NCBI RefSeq assembly: GCF_018502625.1
Contig: NZ_CP075566.1
Coordinates: 4,326,001 to 4,390,000, forward strand
DNA: 64,000 bases
Source of the DNA: Pseudomonas hormoni
Lineage (GTDB): Bacteria; Pseudomonadota; Gammaproteobacteria; Pseudomonadales; Pseudomonadaceae
Reading direction: 5' to 3'
Shown: one piece after another, positions 41,882 to 54,723 of the stretch
How the letters are laid out: every line of letters begins with the position of its first letter
Position numbering within the stretch: position 1 is the stretch's first letter
The notes under the pieces: model-generated
The model's input: only the letters and a program-made list of their open reading frames with translations
What the model was told of the DNA's origin: nothing
The model's database searches: none
Made by a program: the position numbers and the translations under genes

Positions 41882-42127
41882 TTGTGTACATATCCATTTC
41901 TGCGGTAACGGCGGCTATTGGTTCCGCCCTTACGGCGGGTTACTTGGAAAAACGGAACGCCGCCCGGCGCCAAGTAACCAAGCGCCTGCGCCCCTGACGT
42001 ACGGTGGCTCGCTTAGGCTCGCCATGCCCTCGCTCCGGTCCTGCTCCGTGGGCCCGCCGCCATCGGCCATCCATGGCCGGGGGCGGCTAACCCGGCATCC
42101 CTGCCGGGTTGCCCACTGCGCAGAACC
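41882..42127 (+). repeat. Left copy of ~240-bp inverted repeat
   Basis: Begins TTGTGTACATATCC and ends near CGCAGAACC. It is repeated in inverted orientation at 43999-44229 with scattered mismatches and one block of about 20 bp not shared. Both copies contain GGCCATCCATGGCC and the CTGCTCCGTGGGCCCGCCGCC stretch. It does not encode a convincing protein. Confidence 0.9.
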
Positions 42128-43998: not shown

Positions 43999-44229
43999 GG
44001 TTCTGCGTAGTGGGCACCGCGGCAGGGATGCCGCGGTAGCCGCCCCCGGCCATGGATGGCCGATGGCGGCGGGCCCACGGAGCAGGGCCGGAGCGAGGGC
44101 ACCCTGAGCCTAAGCGAAGGGCCGAACGAAAGGGGCAAAAGCGCTTGGTTACTTGGCGCTTCTCCAAGTAACCCGCTGTAAGAGCGGAACCAATAGCAGC
44201 CGTTACCGCAAAAACGGATATGTACACAA
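43999..44229 (-). repeat. Right copy of ~240-bp inverted repeat
   Basis: Inverted copy of 41882-42127, ending TGTACACAA at 44229. It is shorter by about 20 bp where the left copy has AACGGAACGCCGCCCGG. The two copies face each other across the IS110 element. Confidence 0.9.
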
Positions 44230-47616: not shown

Positions 47617-47800
47617 GGGCTATTCCTGAACTGAAGATCGGCGAAGTCTAGGCGTTTGCATCCCGCCCCGGCCAGCAATCTTGCATTCAACCACCTCTGG
47701 CCACGCACCGTGCAATACATAGTTATGTCGTTTCCCCCCAAGAGGCTGCTAGCATCGGCCGCACAGAGAATCCCGATCAGGCCACATCATCAGGTTGCCC

Positions 47801-48526
47801 ATGCTCGAGACCACAGCACTGCCAAGGAAAGCGACGCTGTCCCCGCCACTGGATACGCGGTATCAGGTTGAAACGCCGGAAGGCATCGACTTGCCACTGC
47901 GCCCGGCGGGGCTGATGGTGCGTGCGCTGGCGTTCTCCATCGACCTCGGACTGCGCGGGTTGATTCTGGGTCTGCTGTTTATTGTCCTCGCGTTTCTGGG
48001 AAAACTCGGCGCCGGGCTGGGCTCGATCCTGCTGTTCGTAGTGAGCTGGTGGTACATGGTGCTGTTCGAGGTGCTCAATCAGGGGCGCTCGCCGGGCAAG
48101 CAATGGATGGGCCTGCGTGTGGTGCAGGACGACGGTACGCCAATCGGCTGGTCCGCTTCGTTGTTGCGCAACCTGCTGCGCTTTGTCGACCTGTTGCCGT
48201 TCGGCTATTTCCTCGGCGTCATCAGTTGCCTGCAACACCCCAGCTTCAAACGCCTCGGCGACCTGGCCGCCGGCACGCTGGTGATCTACCGCGAACAACC
48301 GATCACCCGGCCGCAACTGCCTGACGCCGAGCCACGGCGTCCGTCGTTTGCCCTGACGCTGCCCGAGCAACGCGCCATCCTCGGGTTTGCCGAACGCCAG
48401 GGCGAACTCTCCGAAGCGCGGGTCACGGAACTCGCGTCCATCCTCGCGCAACCGTTGAAGGTTTCAGCGCCACGCGCCGTGGCGGAACTCAACGGCATCG
48501 CCCGCGGCTTGTTGGGCCCCGCATGA
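47801..48526 (+). CDS. RDD-family membrane protein
   Basis: A 241-residue protein with an RDD domain: after an N-terminal cytoplasmic stretch come LRPAGLMVRALAFSIDLGLRGLI (membrane helix with Arg/Asp), further hydrophobic segments, and the GRSPGKQWMGLRVV signature near residue 100. ATG at 47801 lies after CAGG. It is the first gene of a six-gene, tightly coupled operon; its stop overlaps the SpoIIM gene start (ATGA). Biochemical function is unknown. Confidence 0.85.
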   Translation: MLETTALPRKATLSPPLDTRYQVETPEGIDLPLRPAGLMVRALAFSIDLGLRGLILGLLFIVLAFLGKLGAGLGSILLFVVSWWYMVLFEVLNQGRSPGKQWMGLRVVQDDGTPIGWSASLLRNLLRFVDLLPFGYFLGVISCLQHPSFKRLGDLAAGTLVIYREQPITRPQLPDAEPRRPSFALTLPEQRAILGFAERQGELSEARVTELASILAQPLKVSAPRAVAELNGIARGLLGPA

Positions 48527-49500
48527 AGCAAAGTCTTTTCGAGAATCGCCACAAGGCTGAATGGGCGCAATTTTCCCTTTTGCTCGACAGGCTGGAACGG
48601 AACAAGGACACCTCACGGATCGCCAGTTTCCCGAAAGATTATCGAAGGCTCTGCCAGCATTTGGCGCTTGCCCAGGAACGCGGCTACAGCAGTTTTCTGA
48701 TCGACTCGTTGCAGCAACAGGTCCTGCGCGGGCACCAACAGCTTTATCAGCATCGCAGCCGACTGGGTGCCAACGCGCTGGGTTTCATCCTGGCGGATTT
48801 CCCGCGACTGGTACGTGAGCAGTGGCGTTTCGTGCTTGCCGCCAGCCTGATGTTTTTTGGCAGCCTGATCGGCTTTGCATTGTTGGTGTATCTGTTCCCG
48901 GACCTGGTCTACAACCTGATCCCGGCCGAACAGGTCAGCGAAATGCAAGGTATGTACGACCCTGTCGCCGGCCACCTTGGGCGCTCGGCGGAACGGGCGG
49001 CCAGTGAAGACTGGGTGATGTTCGGTTTCTACATCATGCACAACATCGGCATTGCCTTTCAGACCTTTGCCAGCGGTTTGCTGTTTGGCCTGGGCAGCGC
49101 GTTTTTCCTGTTCTTCAACGGTTTGATGATCGGCGCGGTGGCCGGGCACCTGACTCAGATCGGCTACGGACAAACCTTCTGGTCGTTCGTGATCGGCCAC
49201 GGCGCCTTCGAACTCAGCGCCATTGCCCTGGCGGGTGCCGCTGGCCTGCAACTGGGCTGGGCCTTGATTGCACCGGGACGACTGCCCCGCGCCGAAGCCT
49301 TGCGTGTGGCGGCGCGCAAAAGTGTGCTGCTGATTTGCGGGGTCATGCTGTTTCTGTTGATCGCGGCGTTTATCGAAGCCTACTGGTCGTCCTTGACCGG
49401 CCCTGCACCGATGACCAAGTATCTGGTCGGCGCGACGCTGTGGTTTTTGGTAGCGATGTATCTGCTGTTTGCCGGACGGACCCGCCATGCGCCTGAGTGA
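48523..49500 (+). CDS. Stage II sporulation protein M-like (SpoIIM/DUF95) membrane protein
   Basis: A 325-residue integral membrane protein. The N-terminal ~90 residues are hydrophilic and helical, and the DUF95/SpoIIM membrane domain follows with several helices, including FGFYIMHNIGIAFQTFASGLLFGLGSAFFLFFNGLMIGAVAG. The organism does not sporulate. In Pseudomonas and other bacteria such proteins occur next to RDD and MoxR genes. It overlaps the RDD gene (ATGA) and the next gene by 14 bp, indicating coupled translation. Confidence 0.87.
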   Translation: MKQSLFENRHKAEWAQFSLLLDRLERNKDTSRIASFPKDYRRLCQHLALAQERGYSSFLIDSLQQQVLRGHQQLYQHRSRLGANALGFILADFPRLVREQWRFVLAASLMFFGSLIGFALLVYLFPDLVYNLIPAEQVSEMQGMYDPVAGHLGRSAERAASEDWVMFGFYIMHNIGIAFQTFASGLLFGLGSAFFLFFNGLMIGAVAGHLTQIGYGQTFWSFVIGHGAFELSAIALAGAAGLQLGWALIAPGRLPRAEALRVAARKSVLLICGVMLFLLIAAFIEAYWSSLTGPAPMTKYLVGATLWFLVAMYLLFAGRTRHAPE

Positions 49501-51031
49501 CGCGACCGTGGTGATCCGCCCTCGAACCACCTGGGAAGCCATGGACCTGGGCGTGCTGCTGAGCCAGCGGCACCGACGCCTGCTGATGACCAGTTGGGCC
49601 ATCGTGACCTTGCCGGTTTTCGCCCTGCTCACCTTGCTGTTGTGGGATTCCCCCTCCCTCGCCGCGTTTATCTTCTGGTGGCTGAAACCGGCGTTCGAGC
49701 GCCTGCCGCTGTACATCCTGTCCAAAGCGATGTTCGGTGAAACGCCCACACTGAAACAGGCGCTGCGCCAATGGCCACGCCTGCTCAAGCCACAATTGCT
49801 GGCCAGCCTGACCTGGCGCCGCTTGAGCCTGAGTCGCAGTTTCCTGTTGCCGGTGGTGCAACTCGAAGGCTTGAGTGGTCTGGCACGACAACAGCGTTTG
49901 CAGGTGTTGTTGCAACGCGACGGAGGGGCGGCGCGTTGGCTGACCATCATCGGCGTGCATCTGGAAAGTGCGCTGTGGATCGGCCTGATGGTGCTGTTCT
50001 ACCTGCTTCTGCCGCCACAAGTCGAACTCGACTGGAGCTGGCAGACATTGCTGTCCGCCGCCACACAGGACTGGCGCTGGCTGGAGCACCTGACCAACGG
50101 GTTTTACGTGTTGGTGCTGGTGGTGTGGGAACCGATCTACGTGGCCTGCGGCTTCAGCCTCTATCTGAACCGGCGCACGGTGCTGGAAGCCTGGGACATC
50201 GAACTGGTGTTCCGCCGCCTGCGCCAACACTTGAGCGGAGCAGCCCTCACCCTGCTGCTGGCGGCTTTTCTACTGGCGCCAACCGGGCAAAACGTCTGGG
50301 CCGCCGAGCCGGCCATTTCCCCTGACAGTCCGCGTCTGCTGGACCAGCCACTGACCAGTCAGGCGTCCCGTGACAGCATCAAGGCGATCCTCGATCAGCC
50401 CCCGTTCAAGAACAAGGAAACGGTCACGCGCTATCGCTTTGGAGAGGACAAACCCGCCGCCAAGACCCCGGACGATGACGAAGAACCCGAATGGCTGAAG
50501 GCCCTGCTCAAGTTGCTTGATAACCAGCGCTTCGGCGCATTGGCGACCTTGATTGAAGTGGTGCTGTGGGGCGCAGTCATCGGCGCGATCGGTGTGTTGA
50601 TCTGGCGTTACCGGGAGTGGTTGCAGGCTTTCGTCAGTCGTCGACCGGCGTTGAAGGGTAAAGTCGCGCGGCCGTTACCGCAGCAAGCTTTCGGCCTGGA
50701 ACTGAGCCGCGAAACCCTGCCCCACGACATTGCCGCCAGCGCCGAAAGTCTCTGGCAATCCAACCCTCGCGAGGCGCTCGGGTTGCTCTATCGCGCCTTG
50801 CTCAGCCACTTACTGCACGATTACAACATGGCGCTGAAACCCGCCGACACCGAAGGCCAGGTGCTGCAGCGCGTCGAACAACTGCAACAACCCGCCCTGT
50901 TGGCCTTCAGCAAAAACCTGACCGGGCACTGGCAGAACATGGCCTACGGGCATCGCCTGCCAGCGGCGCATTTGCAACAGGAACTGTGTGACGGCTGGCG
51001 GACCTTGTTCGGTCCGGGGGCTACGCCTTGA
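49487..51031 (+). CDS. DUF4129-domain membrane protein
   Basis: A 514-residue protein. Several N-terminal membrane helices (about 35-290) are followed by a periplasmic or cytoplasmic linker, another helix near 360, and a C-terminal DUF4129 domain around 415-510 (ESLWQSNPREALGLLYRALLSHLL, QPALLAFSKNLTGHWQNMAYG). DUF4129 is also found at the C-terminus of the TgpA transglutaminase, itself encoded with moxR and DUF58 genes. The transglutaminase part is absent here. Start 49487 overlaps the SpoIIM gene by 14 bp. Next gene starts with TTGA overlap. Confidence 0.82.
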   Translation: MRLSDATVVIRPRTTWEAMDLGVLLSQRHRRLLMTSWAIVTLPVFALLTLLLWDSPSLAAFIFWWLKPAFERLPLYILSKAMFGETPTLKQALRQWPRLLKPQLLASLTWRRLSLSRSFLLPVVQLEGLSGLARQQRLQVLLQRDGGAARWLTIIGVHLESALWIGLMVLFYLLLPPQVELDWSWQTLLSAATQDWRWLEHLTNGFYVLVLVVWEPIYVACGFSLYLNRRTVLEAWDIELVFRRLRQHLSGAALTLLLAAFLLAPTGQNVWAAEPAISPDSPRLLDQPLTSQASRDSIKAILDQPPFKNKETVTRYRFGEDKPAAKTPDDDEEPEWLKALLKLLDNQRFGALATLIEVVLWGAVIGAIGVLIWRYREWLQAFVSRRPALKGKVARPLPQQAFGLELSRETLPHDIAASAESLWQSNPREALGLLYRALLSHLLHDYNMALKPADTEGQVLQRVEQLQQPALLAFSKNLTGHWQNMAYGHRLPAAHLQQELCDGWRTLFGPGATP

Positions 51032-52191
51032 ACCGGCGATTGTGGCTGGTCGCCGGGGTGCTTATCGCCGTGCTGTTGGGCGCGTTGAGTCTTTATCTCT
51101 ACGCCAGGGCGACGCCCTATCAGGCAGACATCGATCACGGCCCGTCGCCCGAAGCCCAGGCCAACCCTTATCTGGCCGCTGAACATTTCCTGCGCAAACA
51201 GGGCCTGACCGTTAGCCATGCCAACAGCCTGGACATCCTGCCCACGCTGGAGCCTCGGCAACGCAGCCTGTTGTTGCTCGGCGACCGCTCCGGCATGACC
51301 CCGCGCCAGATCGATCAAGTGCTGAACTGGACACGCGCCGGAGGACGTCTTTTATTCATCGCCGAGTCGTTGTGGAATGAAAAACTGGGCCAGAGCAATG
51401 ACCTGTTGCTCGACCGGGTCCAGGTGCACCAGTCATTGAGCAAAGACCTCAAGGACCCGCCGCCCGACATCGGCAAGGATCCCTACCCCAAACTGACCAA
51501 GCTGTACCTTGAGGACGAAGACGCGCCGGCCTATGCCACCTTCGATACCGCGTTCCATCTCGAAGACCCGAAAAATCTCGCGCAAGCCTGGGCCAACAGC
51601 GGCAAGGCCACGCACATGATGCAACTGAACCACGGGCTCGGTTCGATCATCGTCGTCACCGACGCCGACCTGTGGAAAACCCCGGCCATCGACCAGTACG
51701 ACAACGCCTGGCTGCTGTGGTACCTGACCGCGGACACGAACGTGACCCTGCTGTTCAACACCGACCACGACAGCGTGCTGACCTTGTTACTGCGCTATTT
51801 CCCACAGGCGCTGGTTGCCCTCATCGCCCTGATCGGCCTGGGTCTCTGGCATGTCGGCGTGCGCCATGGCCCGTTGATCGAACCCGCCCCTAAAGCCCGT
51901 CGGCAACTCCACGAGCACCTGCGCGCCAGCGCCGATTTCATGTGGCGCCGCACCGGTCAAGCCAGCCTGTTGCAAGCCTTGCAGCACGACATCCTGCGCC
52001 GGGTGCGGCGCCGTCATCCCGGTTTCGAACAACTCGGCGTCGCCGAACAATGGCTGGTGCTCGCACGCCTGACCGGCCAACCCACACGCGCTATCAGCCA
52101 GGCCATGAGCCCGCGACCGAAGCAACGGCTGTCCAGCGTTGAATTCAGTCGTCAGGTCGCCCACCTGCAAACCTTGAGGAACGCCTTATGA
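51028..52191 (+). CDS. DUF4350-domain membrane protein
   Basis: 387 residues starting with a TTG inside the preceding stop (TTGA). One N-terminal membrane helix (LVAGVLIAVLLGALSLYLYA) precedes the DUF4350 domain, which resembles glutamine-amidotransferase-like or GldG-type folds (LLLLGDRSGMTPRQIDQVLNW, GGRLLFIAESLW). A second helix lies near residue 260 (ALVALIALIGLGLWHVG), followed by a cytoplasmic helical tail. It overlaps the moxR gene (ATGA). Confidence 0.8.
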   Translation: MNRRLWLVAGVLIAVLLGALSLYLYARATPYQADIDHGPSPEAQANPYLAAEHFLRKQGLTVSHANSLDILPTLEPRQRSLLLLGDRSGMTPRQIDQVLNWTRAGGRLLFIAESLWNEKLGQSNDLLLDRVQVHQSLSKDLKDPPPDIGKDPYPKLTKLYLEDEDAPAYATFDTAFHLEDPKNLAQAWANSGKATHMMQLNHGLGSIIVVTDADLWKTPAIDQYDNAWLLWYLTADTNVTLLFNTDHDSVLTLLLRYFPQALVALIALIGLGLWHVGVRHGPLIEPAPKARRQLHEHLRASADFMWRRTGQASLLQALQHDILRRVRRRHPGFEQLGVAEQWLVLARLTGQPTRAISQAMSPRPKQRLSSVEFSRQVAHLQTLRNAL

Positions 52192-53189
52192 GTGAACAGA
52201 TCGAGCCCAGCGCACCGAGCCACGCCGCGCAGCAACGCCAGCGCGCCAGTCAGTTGGCCCAAGCGGTAAGAGCTGAATTGCAAAAAGCCGTCATCGGCCA
52301 GAACACGGTGATCGACGATGTACTCACCGCGCTGATTGCCGGCGGCCATGTGCTGCTCGAAGGCGTGCCGGGGCTGGGCAAAACCTTGTTGGTCCGCGCC
52401 CTCGCCCGCTGCTTCGGCGGCGAATTCGCGCGCATCCAGTTCACCCCGGACCTGATGCCCAGCGATGTCACCGGGCACGCGGTGTACGACCTGCAGACCG
52501 AGCAATTCAAACTGCGCAAAGGTCCGTTGTTCACCAACTTGCTGCTCGCCGACGAAATCAACCGCGCCCCCGCGAAAACCCAGGCCGCGTTGCTTGAGGC
52601 GATGCAGGAACGCCAGGTCACTCTCGAAGGCCGTGCCCTGCCCATCGCGCAGCCGTTCATGGTGCTCGCCACACAAAACCCCATCGAACAGGAAGGCACG
52701 TATCCCCTGCCGGAAGCCGAGCTGGACCGCTTCATGCTCAAGGTGCGCATGGACTACCCCGACGCCGATCAGGAGTTGGACATGGTGCGCCAGGTCAGCC
52801 GCTCGACCCGGGCCGACATGCTCGACGTGCAACCGCTGCGCACCGTGTTGCAAGCCAAGGACGTGCTGGCCTTGCAACGCATCGCCAGCGATTTGCCGCT
52901 GGACGACCAGGTCCTCGATTACGCCGTACGCCTGGCGCGCACCACCCGTAGCTGGCCCGGCCTGACCCTCGGCGCCGGGCCTCGGGCCTCCATTGCACTG
53001 GTGCGCTGCGCTCGGGCGCGCGCCTTGCTGCGCGGCGGCGAATTCGTGATTCCGGATGACATAAAGGGCTGCGCGCTGGCGGTGTTGCGCCATCGTGTAC
53101 GCATCGCGCCGGAGCTGGATATCGAAGGGCTGGAGGTCGATCACGTGCTGCAGCAATTGCTCGATCAAGTACCGGCGCCGCGCTTGTGA
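52188..53189 (+). CDS. moxR: MoxR-family AAA+ ATPase
   Basis: A 333-residue AAA+ ATPase of the MoxR group. Walker A GVPGLGKT is at 59-66, Walker B is LLADEINRAPAKTQAALLEAM, sensor 1 is in VLATQNPIEQEGTYPLPEA, and the lid domain follows. MoxR ATPases often act with VWA or DUF58 proteins as chaperone-like machines that mature membrane or periplasmic complexes. It overlaps the DUF4350 gene by 4 bp and is separated from the DUF58 gene by a REP pair of about 150 bp. Confidence 0.92.
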   Translation: MSEQIEPSAPSHAAQQRQRASQLAQAVRAELQKAVIGQNTVIDDVLTALIAGGHVLLEGVPGLGKTLLVRALARCFGGEFARIQFTPDLMPSDVTGHAVYDLQTEQFKLRKGPLFTNLLLADEINRAPAKTQAALLEAMQERQVTLEGRALPIAQPFMVLATQNPIEQEGTYPLPEAELDRFMLKVRMDYPDADQELDMVRQVSRSTRADMLDVQPLRTVLQAKDVLALQRIASDLPLDDQVLDYAVRLARTTRSWPGLTLGAGPRASIALVRCARARALLRGGEFVIPDDIKGCALAVLRHRVRIAPELDIEGLEVDHVLQQLLDQVPAPRL

Positions 53190-53212
53190 TCACATCCCTG
53201 TTCAACGCAAAC

Positions 53213-53360
53213 CCTGTGGCGAGGGAGCTTGCTCCCGCCGGGTTGCGCAGCAGCCCCAAAACCGGGCGACGCGCAATGTCAGGCGAACCGCGCCCACCTG
53301 TTTTACGACTGCTACGCCCGGGCGCGGATCGGCCGACGGGAGCAAGCTCCCTCGCCACAA
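53213..53360. repeat. REP pair, family C (TGTGGCGAGGGAGCTTGCTCCC), inside the moxR operon
   Basis: Inverted copies of TGTGGCGAGGGAGCTTGCTCCCG lie about 100 bp apart between moxR and the DUF58 gene. It is the only REP between two genes of an otherwise overlapping operon. In RNA it forms a long hairpin that could slow 3' decay or lower downstream expression. Confidence 0.9.
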
Positions 53361-53391
53361 AAAGCACTTTGGCCACAAAAGGTGTGCGCAG

Positions 53392-54723
53392 ATGAAACCC
53401 TCGCGCCTGCTCCTGATCTGGTTGGCACTGCTGCTGGCCATTGGCATCGTGCTCGGTGCATTGCGGGCGCTGGATATCGCCGTTCCATCAACGCTGTTGT
53501 CGATCAACTGGGGGTTGCTGCTGGCGCTACTGGCCCTGGCAATACTCGATGCGGTCCGCCTTAAACGCTTGCCCTCGCCCCGAATAACAAGACAAATGCC
53601 CGGCAGCCTGGCGCTCGGCCGTTGGAGCGAAGTGCAACTGGAGGTTGAACACGACTTTCCCCAGCCACTGACTATCCGGATTTTCGACCACGTGCCCGAC
53701 GGCCTGACCTTCGAAAACCTCCCCTTGTCAGTCGAGCTTCAGCCGGACAGGCACACCCGGACCGGCTATCGCCTGCGTCCACTCAAGCGCGGCCACTTCA
53801 CCTTTGAACACTGCGAAATCAACCTGCCGAGCCCGTTGGGCCTGTGGTCCGACAAACGCCTGCCAAACGTGCCCGACCACACCCGCGTGTACCCTGACTT
53901 CGCCCGCCTCTACGGCGGCCAACTGCTGGCCGTGGACAATTGGCTCAGCCAGCTCGGCGTGCGCCAGCGGCAACGACGCGGCCTGGGCCTGGAGTTTCAC
54001 CAGCTACGGGAATTTCGCGAAGGCGACAGCTTGCGCCAGATCGACTGGAAAGCCACCGCCCGCCAGCGCACACCGATTGCCCGGGAGTACCAGGACGAAC
54101 GCGACCAGCAAATCATTTTCATGCTCGACTGCGGTCGACGCATGCGCAGCCAGGATGGGGAACTGGCGCATTTCGATCACGCGCTCAATGCCTGTCTGTT
54201 ACTGAGCTACATTGCTCTGCGCCAAGGTGATGCGGTGGGGCTCAGCACCTTTGCCGTCGAGCAACCGCGCTATCTCGCACCCGTGAAAGGTGCCGGGCAA
54301 CTCAACGTATTGCTCAACACGGTCTACGACCTGAACAGCACCCAACGCAGCGCCGACTATCAAGCGGCGGCGACTCAACTGCTGGTCCGGCAAAAACGCC
54401 GCTCGCTGGTGGTGCTGGTGACCAACCTGCGGGACGAAGACGATGAAGAATTGCTCACAGCCGTCAAACGCCTGAGCAAGCAGCATCGGGTGCTGGTCGC
54501 GAGCCTGCGTGAGAACGTACTCGACAGCCTGCGTCAGACAACCGTGCAAACCTTGTCCGAAGCGCTGGTCTATTGCGGGACGGTGGACTTCTTGAACGCA
54601 CGGGCCGAACTTCATGAACGGCTGAATGCCCATGGCGTGCCGGTACTGGATGCAAGTACTCATGAACTGGGCGCCGCGCTGGTGACGCGGTACCTGGAAT
54701 GGAAGAAGGCCGGGGTGTTTTAG
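53392..54723 (+). CDS. DUF58 domain protein
   Basis: 443 residues. Two N-terminal helices (about 6-55) anchor it. A beta-rich middle region precedes the DUF58 core, with the signature EFREGDSLRQIDWKATARQ. A VWA-like C-terminal half contains IIFMLDCGRRMR and AVGLSTFAVEQPR. DUF58 proteins pair with MoxR ATPases. ATG at 53392 has no close GGAGG, and translation may rely on the upstream region. It ends the operon begun at 47801. Confidence 0.88.
   Translation: MKPSRLLLIWLALLLAIGIVLGALRALDIAVPSTLLSINWGLLLALLALAILDAVRLKRLPSPRITRQMPGSLALGRWSEVQLEVEHDFPQPLTIRIFDHVPDGLTFENLPLSVELQPDRHTRTGYRLRPLKRGHFTFEHCEINLPSPLGLWSDKRLPNVPDHTRVYPDFARLYGGQLLAVDNWLSQLGVRQRQRRGLGLEFHQLREFREGDSLRQIDWKATARQRTPIAREYQDERDQQIIFMLDCGRRMRSQDGELAHFDHALNACLLLSYIALRQGDAVGLSTFAVEQPRYLAPVKGAGQLNVLLNTVYDLNSTQRSADYQAAATQLLVRQKRRSLVVLVTNLRDEDDEELLTAVKRLSKQHRVLVASLRENVLDSLRQTTVQTLSEALVYCGTVDFLNARAELHERLNAHGVPVLDASTHELGAALVTRYLEWKKAGVF

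Follow-up and report, generated by a model that had tools for sequence, protein, structure and literature searches.

The closest described counterpart of the operon studied here is the gene cluster PA4317-23 of Pseudomonas aeruginosa, which was reported in 2022 as a Gac/Rsm-regulated antagonism-resistance cluster and named arc2A-G (PMC8926400). Our operon consists of six co-directional genes, for RDD, SpoIIM/DUF95, DUF4129, DUF4350, MoxR and DUF58 proteins, at positions 47801-54723 of a 64,000-nucleotide (nt) stretch of Pseudomonas hormoni DNA (contig NZ_CP075566.1, positions 4,326,001 to 4,390,000 of the forward strand; hereafter the window). In the sections of PMC8926400 drawn on here, arc2 mutants are less fit under attack by the type VI secretion system (T6SS) of B. 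thailandensis, and removal of ColA, a predicted pore-former of the inner membrane, from the attacker significantly restores their survival; the protection is directed in part at ColA, with a degree of specificity for it. Deletion of PA4320 on top of a PA4323 deletion has no added effect, expression is very low at baseline and can be induced via Gac/Rsm, the mutants are normal under heat, peroxide, salt and detergent, and inactivation of arc2 leaves the survival of the rival unchanged. Among the open-access literature searched, this is the only source that gives a function for the locus, and its sections used here contain no mechanism. A previous sequence-only reading of the window had described the four membrane proteins as of unknown function; for the P. 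aeruginosa orthologue of the locus a defence phenotype is published. The MoxR-driven membrane machine that the reading also proposed still offers the best account. Of the two findings that it had named as refuting, inconsistent gene order was not borne out, and a known function of the whole locus is at hand at the phenotype level.

Parts of the same gene set are found in other described systems. The mycobacterial genes Rv3689-Rv3695 bring DUF4350, MoxR, DUF58, SpoIIM and RDD into one neighbourhood with a further membrane gene, and the table for M. chelonae lists five of the six families for their homologues (PMC8191103, in the portion used here). This likeness is one of annotation, with no sequences compared: the order resembles a permuted proteobacterial form described below, DUF4129 is not named in that portion, and Rv3694c, judged by its name, is on the other strand. 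The excerpt of PMC5898192 used here records that Makarova and others had noted bacterial SpoIIM together with a vWA protein and a COG0714 ATPase, and archaeal DUF4350 with the same two partners; the archaeal arCOG01314 operons thereby share DUF4350, MoxR and a vWA protein with arc2, but carry Ig-like and S-layer proteins, while the window has SpoIIM, RDD and DUF4129 instead. NorQ/NorD and RavA/ViaA also pair a MoxR AAA+ ATPase with a VWA-type partner, as in arc2; unlike them, the window has four extra membrane proteins and a DUF58 protein with predicted N-terminal transmembrane (TM) helices and a degenerate DxSxS motif. Within the same genome, an operon at C1:2208941-2211939, which we take to be of the bat type, combines a MoxR gene (47% identical) with DUF58, DUF4381 and a weak DUF58/VWA match, and has no SpoIIM, DUF4350 or DUF4129 match. 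The comparison with a presumed TgpA-type operon, made in the earlier reading, adds little here: PF13559 matches the arc2 DUF4129 gene and no other in the genome, and of only two MoxR genes at E 1e-40 one is that of arc2 and the other sits beside other DUF58 genes.

Judged from gene order and sequence, the window operon is almost certainly the orthologue of arc2 (antagonism resistance cluster 2), and by its gene content it is a six-gene variant (arc2B-G) without arc2A, not full arc2. In PA7 (locus L275) the order sbcB'-arc2A-RDD-SpoIIM-DUF4129-DUF4350-MoxR-DUF58-PilZ'-pyk is that of the window plus arc2A, and the orthologues of PA4318-PA4323 follow one another in order between sbcB and pykA in both. 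Eight published primers or primer parts were tried on the PA7 locus and four fell at the expected places (PA4323_F1 and PA4323_R2 exactly, PA4323_R1 with one mismatch, PA4320_F1 with two); the PA4323 primers flank the PA7 DUF58 orthologue, and the gene-specific part of PA4320_F1 falls in the SpoIIM gene, just upstream of the DUF4129 orthologue. The other four had no PA7 match within three mismatches, and as we read them three of these carry deletion-junction or non-gene sequence by design. PA4320 and PA4323 are tied to the PA7 genes via primers, PA4322 via its AAA annotation and the remaining PA numbers via position. Two features of P. aeruginosa arc2 are missing from the window, arc2A (PA4317 by position) and an ANGGA motif over its ribosome-binding site, and the window differs further in having a repeat, which we take to be a repetitive extragenic palindrome (REP), between moxR and the DUF58 gene. 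A defence role in P. hormoni itself seems somewhat favoured.

Open reading frames, start calls, overlaps and Pfam families all agree with the six-gene operon proposed in the earlier reading, and each family assignment is above the gathering score. All genes are on the + strand. The RDD family membrane protein (arc2B/PA4318 by position, 47801..48526, 241 aa; PF06271, E 2.7e-19) has a same-position orthologue in PA7, and is followed by the SpoIIM/DUF95 family membrane protein (arc2C/PA4319 by position, 48523..49500, 325 aa; PF01944, E 5.8e-37), the DUF4129 membrane protein (arc2D/PA4320, 49487..51031, 514 aa; PF13559, E 1.4e-7, residues 434-505), the DUF4350 protein (arc2E/PA4321 by position, 51028..52191, 387 aa, TTG start; PF14258, E 5.5e-26) and the MoxR-family AAA+ ATPase (arc2F/PA4322, 52188..53189, 333 aa; PF07726, E 1.4e-64, and PF17863), with successive overlaps of 4, 14, 4 and 4 bp. 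The sixth gene comes after the REP, as had been claimed: a 202-bp gap containing an inverted repeat (53215..53359, unstranded; 27-nt arms 53215-53241/53333-53359, 96% complementary) precedes the gene for the DUF58/degenerate VWA protein (arc2G/PA4323, 53392..54723, 443 aa; PF01882, E 2.2e-28, VWA_2 below cut-off), whose start is ATG 53392 within a longer open frame. The core of the repeat, GGGAGCAAGCTCCC, is also found 3' of moxR in three other Pseudomonadaceae loci. The operon is flanked by sbcB, a PilZ gene and a small TPR-type gene (Pfam scan), and we regard its layout as more than chance because it is conserved across loci, a basis other than a shuffle.

Conservation of gene order had been set beforehand as one of two tests that could refute the proposal, and the order held: 168 of 184 distinct Pseudomonadaceae loci, all chosen for having DUF4350 and left after 17 duplicates were dropped, have exactly the six genes in order. 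The RDD>SpoIIM overlap is kept in 195 and the SpoIIM>DUF4129 overlap in 196 of 199 loci, a count in which genomes fetched via two routes appear twice. We examined the remaining 16 loci with tblastn and, for nine of these, searched the genome for MoxR as well. L152 proved complete on tblastn, L160 is truncated by a contig end, L123 has DUF4129 split in two pieces and a partial RDD, and the genus members L187 and L188 retain only degenerate, strongly diverged operon remnants. In seven others (L091, L094, L100, L110, L124, L158 and L183) the operon is split between DUF4350 and MoxR, and a MoxR with 84-94% identity to that of the window is found 3-56 kb further downstream, still on that contig and strand; in L241, L271, L290 and L303 no MoxR was found within about 10 kb downstream, nor was it sought elsewhere in them. 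The four membrane genes stay together in all 11 loci with moxR not adjoining DUF4350. The DUF4350|MoxR junction is a repeated insertion point, with 3-56 kb inserted in seven genomes; the insertions of L100 and L124 begin with a tyrosine-recombinase-like gene (below family cut-offs) followed by two genes alike in length and start, and the L094 insertion holds a flavohaemoprotein and a FabK-like gene.

Presence across the genus shows the six genes to be an all-or-none module. DUF4350 is present in 117 of 149 genus genomes and absent from 32; SpoIIM was found in none of the 20 DUF4350-negative genomes tested, compared with four of four DUF4350-positive ones, and a strong DUF58 match apart from that of arc2 is present in all 24.

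In PA7 and many relatives arc2A is an extra membrane gene between sbcB and RDD; in the window no arc2A lies there, only a weak homologue being found elsewhere (33% identity, E 6e-9), and all 64 rows of the starred clade holding the window are without it. The median sbcB-RDD distance is 196 nt in 100 loci without arc2A versus 1068 nt in 45 with it, and L085 (860 nt) and L089 (543 nt) are the sole cases above 433 nt among the 100, so that where no arc2A was called there is no room for one. L018 has two tandem arc2A-type genes before RDD. Of 63 distinct leaders with arc2A as first gene, 61 have the ANGGA motif, which we take to be of the RsmA type, over the first ribosome-binding site (L017, one of the two without it, reflects an error of the start finder); of 114 with RDD first, 23 have it. 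By the same test it occurs at RDD in 0/63 arc2A loci, at MoxR in 0/168, SpoIIM in 3/177, DUF4350 in 18/176, DUF58 in 9/165 and PilZ in 5/67. On a tree of 145 loci (FastTree, with long-branch warnings; L017 set by hand) arc2A changes state 12 times, 10 of them forced by starred branches, and over 10 independent pairs the motif accompanies arc2A in 9.8 on average and is never opposite (sign test, p about 0.002).

In the window no GGA is found within 240 nt before the RDD start. Because arc2A and the ANGGA leader are both absent, Gac/Rsm control of the window operon has rather probably been lost or weakened. Three observations pull the other way: ANGGA is also met at ordinary ribosome-binding sites (SbcB 37/177, Pyk 25/69, DUF4129 67/176); the motif is present in one clade without arc2A (17 rows around L134-L193), and the tie between motif and arc2A is therefore not without exception; and one ANGGA at +23 inside the window RDD coding region makes RsmA binding possible. 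Since arc2A is likewise found before RDD in L021, L039, L040, L043, L044 and L046, which belong to three further families of the order, the linkage is old and its repeated loss likely, with counts that by themselves cannot tell gain from loss.

A -10-like box, GCTAGCATC, lies upstream of the RDD gene (47748..47756, + strand), and CTAG[CG]AT occurs in the 230 nt preceding the RDD ETPE codon in 94/100 loci without arc2A and 45/45 with it (139/145), and in 31/1450 random segments. A sigma-70 consensus scan found no promoter upstream of RDD. Because the box precedes RDD in loci of both kinds, RDD-DUF58 probably has a promoter of its own.

The six-gene set extends beyond the family. PF14258 (DUF4350) matches occurred at E 0.001 in 58 of 194 genomes of the GTDB order, 41 of them above cut-off, and of 40 stretches fetched from the order 36 hold all six genes in one order and orientation, one is cut by its contig and three have none or part. 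A phylum sample gave matches in 118 of 398 genomes (76 above cut-off); 27 stretches from other orders or classes comprise eight with the same order, six with MoxR-DUF58-SpoIIM-RDD and 12 with none or part, and in L204, one of the 27, SpoIIM and RDD were not found. L217, one of the permuted stretches and from another class, has an order DUF4129, DUF4350, MoxR, DUF58, SpoIIM and RDD by Pfam, adjoining or overlapping, its DUF4129 scoring 22.8 bits, below the 24.8 cut-off.

What the six proteins might do was considered from their sequences and models. The MoxR protein has a conserved AAA_3 core with AAA_lid_2 and what we take to be Walker A/B, sensor 1, Arg finger and sensor 2. By hydropathy only, SpoIIM and DUF4129 have five TM segments each, and DUF4350 has two that enclose a domain, the first near the N-terminus and the second at 253-271, followed by a C-terminal part. 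In SpoIIM, residues N174, N199, H226, E230 and E285 are invariant in 52/52 nr sequences, and these polar residues fall in the membrane region; SpoIID and SpoIIP, the partners of SpoIIM in the sporulation DMP complex, are not among the nine Pfam-scanned window proteins, and no genome-wide search for those partners was made. The RDD gene product belongs to the RDD family (PF06271). The DUF4350 middle domain resembles IFT52 (profile match, E 0.005) and a beta-galactosidase trimerisation domain. Its AlphaFold2 model (predicted local distance difference test score (pLDDT) 79, predicted template modelling score (pTM) 0.52) is matched by Foldseek to the IFT52 N-domain (mmIFT52) with E 2.6e-4, TMt 0.46 and a root-mean-square deviation of 6.9, a loose superposition at rank 5 behind glycoside-hydrolase domains and STM1381. 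On profile and fold together the domain can loosely be called IFT52/GldG-like, the GldG likeness being taken from PMC5898192. In DUF58, two N-terminal TM segments (hydropathy only) are followed by positive charges, and for this reason the VWA-like part is probably cytosolic, beside MoxR, where its docking into the MoxR pore is possible.

The best explanation overall, which we judge to be evenly balanced between right and wrong, is a MoxR-driven remodelling of a membrane complex that would counter a pore-forming toxin. A cytosolic MoxR hexamer would engage the membrane-anchored DUF58 protein and spend ATP on remodelling a putative inner-membrane complex of SpoIIM, RDD, DUF4129 and DUF4350, which in turn would remove, close or compensate for the toxin; SpoIIM may be the translocating part, RDD may rebalance cations, and the DUF4350 outer domain may sense or bind on the outside. 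Force application by a MoxR/VWA pair is described for NorQ/NorD (PMC13036017), and one RDD protein, from Halobacillus, is a Na+(Li+,K+)/H+ antiporter (PMC5996927). In the part of PMC6131525 used here, a SpoIIM/DUF95 gene is always present in circular-bacteriocin clusters, and in an lcyD knockout the mature bacteriocin stays in the cell, LcyD (SpoIIM/DUF95) being needed for export. This export role and the predicted pore-forming nature of ColA together suggest, by analogy, a job on a membrane-inserted or membrane-active toxin; extraction or closure of the pores as such seems unlikely.

Several results weigh against the remodelling explanation. The SpoIIM structure model gave no confident fold match. 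DUF58 does not have the metal-ion-dependent adhesion site (MIDAS) of VWA domains, DxSxS-T-D as defined in the NorD work: D246 is kept in 57/57 sequences, but the first Ser is Gly (G248) in 55/57 and the second is Arg (R250) in 43/57, and with the first Asp kept and not the two Ser, binding of a client through the metal, as in NorD, is unlikely. Gac/Rsm is confined to the gammaproteobacteria according to the sections of PMC8926400 used, yet the six-gene set is found beyond them as well, where its role need not be toxin defence.

The alternative that survives best, itself doubtful, is that MoxR and DUF58 are assembly chaperones that mature or activate a transporter composed of RDD, SpoIIM, DUF4129 and DUF4350, which would protect through ion gradients or envelope balance and leave the toxin untouched. 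MoxR/VWA pairs such as NorQ/NorD do mature client enzymes, the Halobacillus antiporter may be a precedent for RDD, and the cohesion of the four membrane genes in the 11 loci with moxR apart (3-56 kb downstream in the seven checked) also speaks for it; yet the absence of salt, heat, peroxide or detergent sensitivity in arc2 mutants is unlike a general transporter defect. It appears quite improbable that the operon serves general stress or envelope housekeeping, which may be the job of the mycobacterial version, with ColA protection as one of many weak effects: the Rv3689-Rv3695 homologues of five families have negative fold changes in M. chelonae double lysogens (PMC8191103, portion used), and DUF58 and MoxR genes of M. 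smegmatis with their neighbours are lower in a sigF mutant (PMC4694148, portion used), but P. aeruginosa shows no general-stress phenotype in the published sections, and the patchy all-or-none presence, with DUF4350 missing from 32/149 genus genomes and SpoIIM from 20/20 of these that were checked, speaks against it. Least probable is a secretion or surface-assembly system of the kind predicted for the archaeal DUF4350, MoxR and vWA operons, in which defence would be incidental; the GldG and IFT52 likeness of DUF4350 and the LcyD requirement in bacteriocin export speak for it, and against it stand the sbcB, PilZ and TPR-type flanks of the window in place of Ig-like and S-layer proteins (Ig-like partners were not searched in relatives) and the unchanged survival of the rival after arc2 inactivation.

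A broader version of the remodelling explanation, which we hold only tentatively, is that an old machine of two separable blocks, a membrane block (RDD-SpoIIM-DUF4129-DUF4350) and a motor block (MoxR-DUF58), copes with inner-membrane pore-forming proteins or peptides in Pseudomonas, in another proteobacterial class and, by published annotation, in mycobacteria. On this view the arc2A gene and the RsmA-type leader would form a control cassette that can be detached: in some lineages it would couple the machine to danger sensing, and it would have been lost several times, the window being one case.

Some further observations touch on arc2 and on the window. Loss-of-function mutations of PA4321 (DUF4350) are reported in more than half of 66 airway P. 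aeruginosa isolates (PMC12817961, portion used), and the operon may be lost in chronic infection. The P. hormoni genome also encodes a DUF2339 protein (G000:C1:6074045-6077065, a 1214-aa frame), and DUF2339 (Pfam 10101) is the family that defines Arc3A in the sections of PMC8926400 used. Two TwoAYGGAY RNA matches barely over the gathering score lie in the window about 2 kb apart in opposite orientation (42050-42114, - strand; 44012-44076, + strand).

The defence role of the locus in P. aeruginosa is already known (PMC8926400); the present analysis adds the orthology test, the all-or-none module and its division into two separable blocks, the permuted distribution, and the finding that arc2A and the switch motif are absent together. 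A seemingly unknown operon is thereby linked to a defence against rival bacteria that has been demonstrated experimentally, and its core is shown in permuted order in another proteobacterial class. We predict that species with the six-gene form express Arc2 independently of the Gac/Rsm danger signal, or more so. If the core handles pore-forming toxins, the SpoIIM/DUF95 proteins of arc2 and of circular-bacteriocin clusters may share a job, the moving of membrane-active peptides, and in arc2 the AAA+ ATPase would be the motor.

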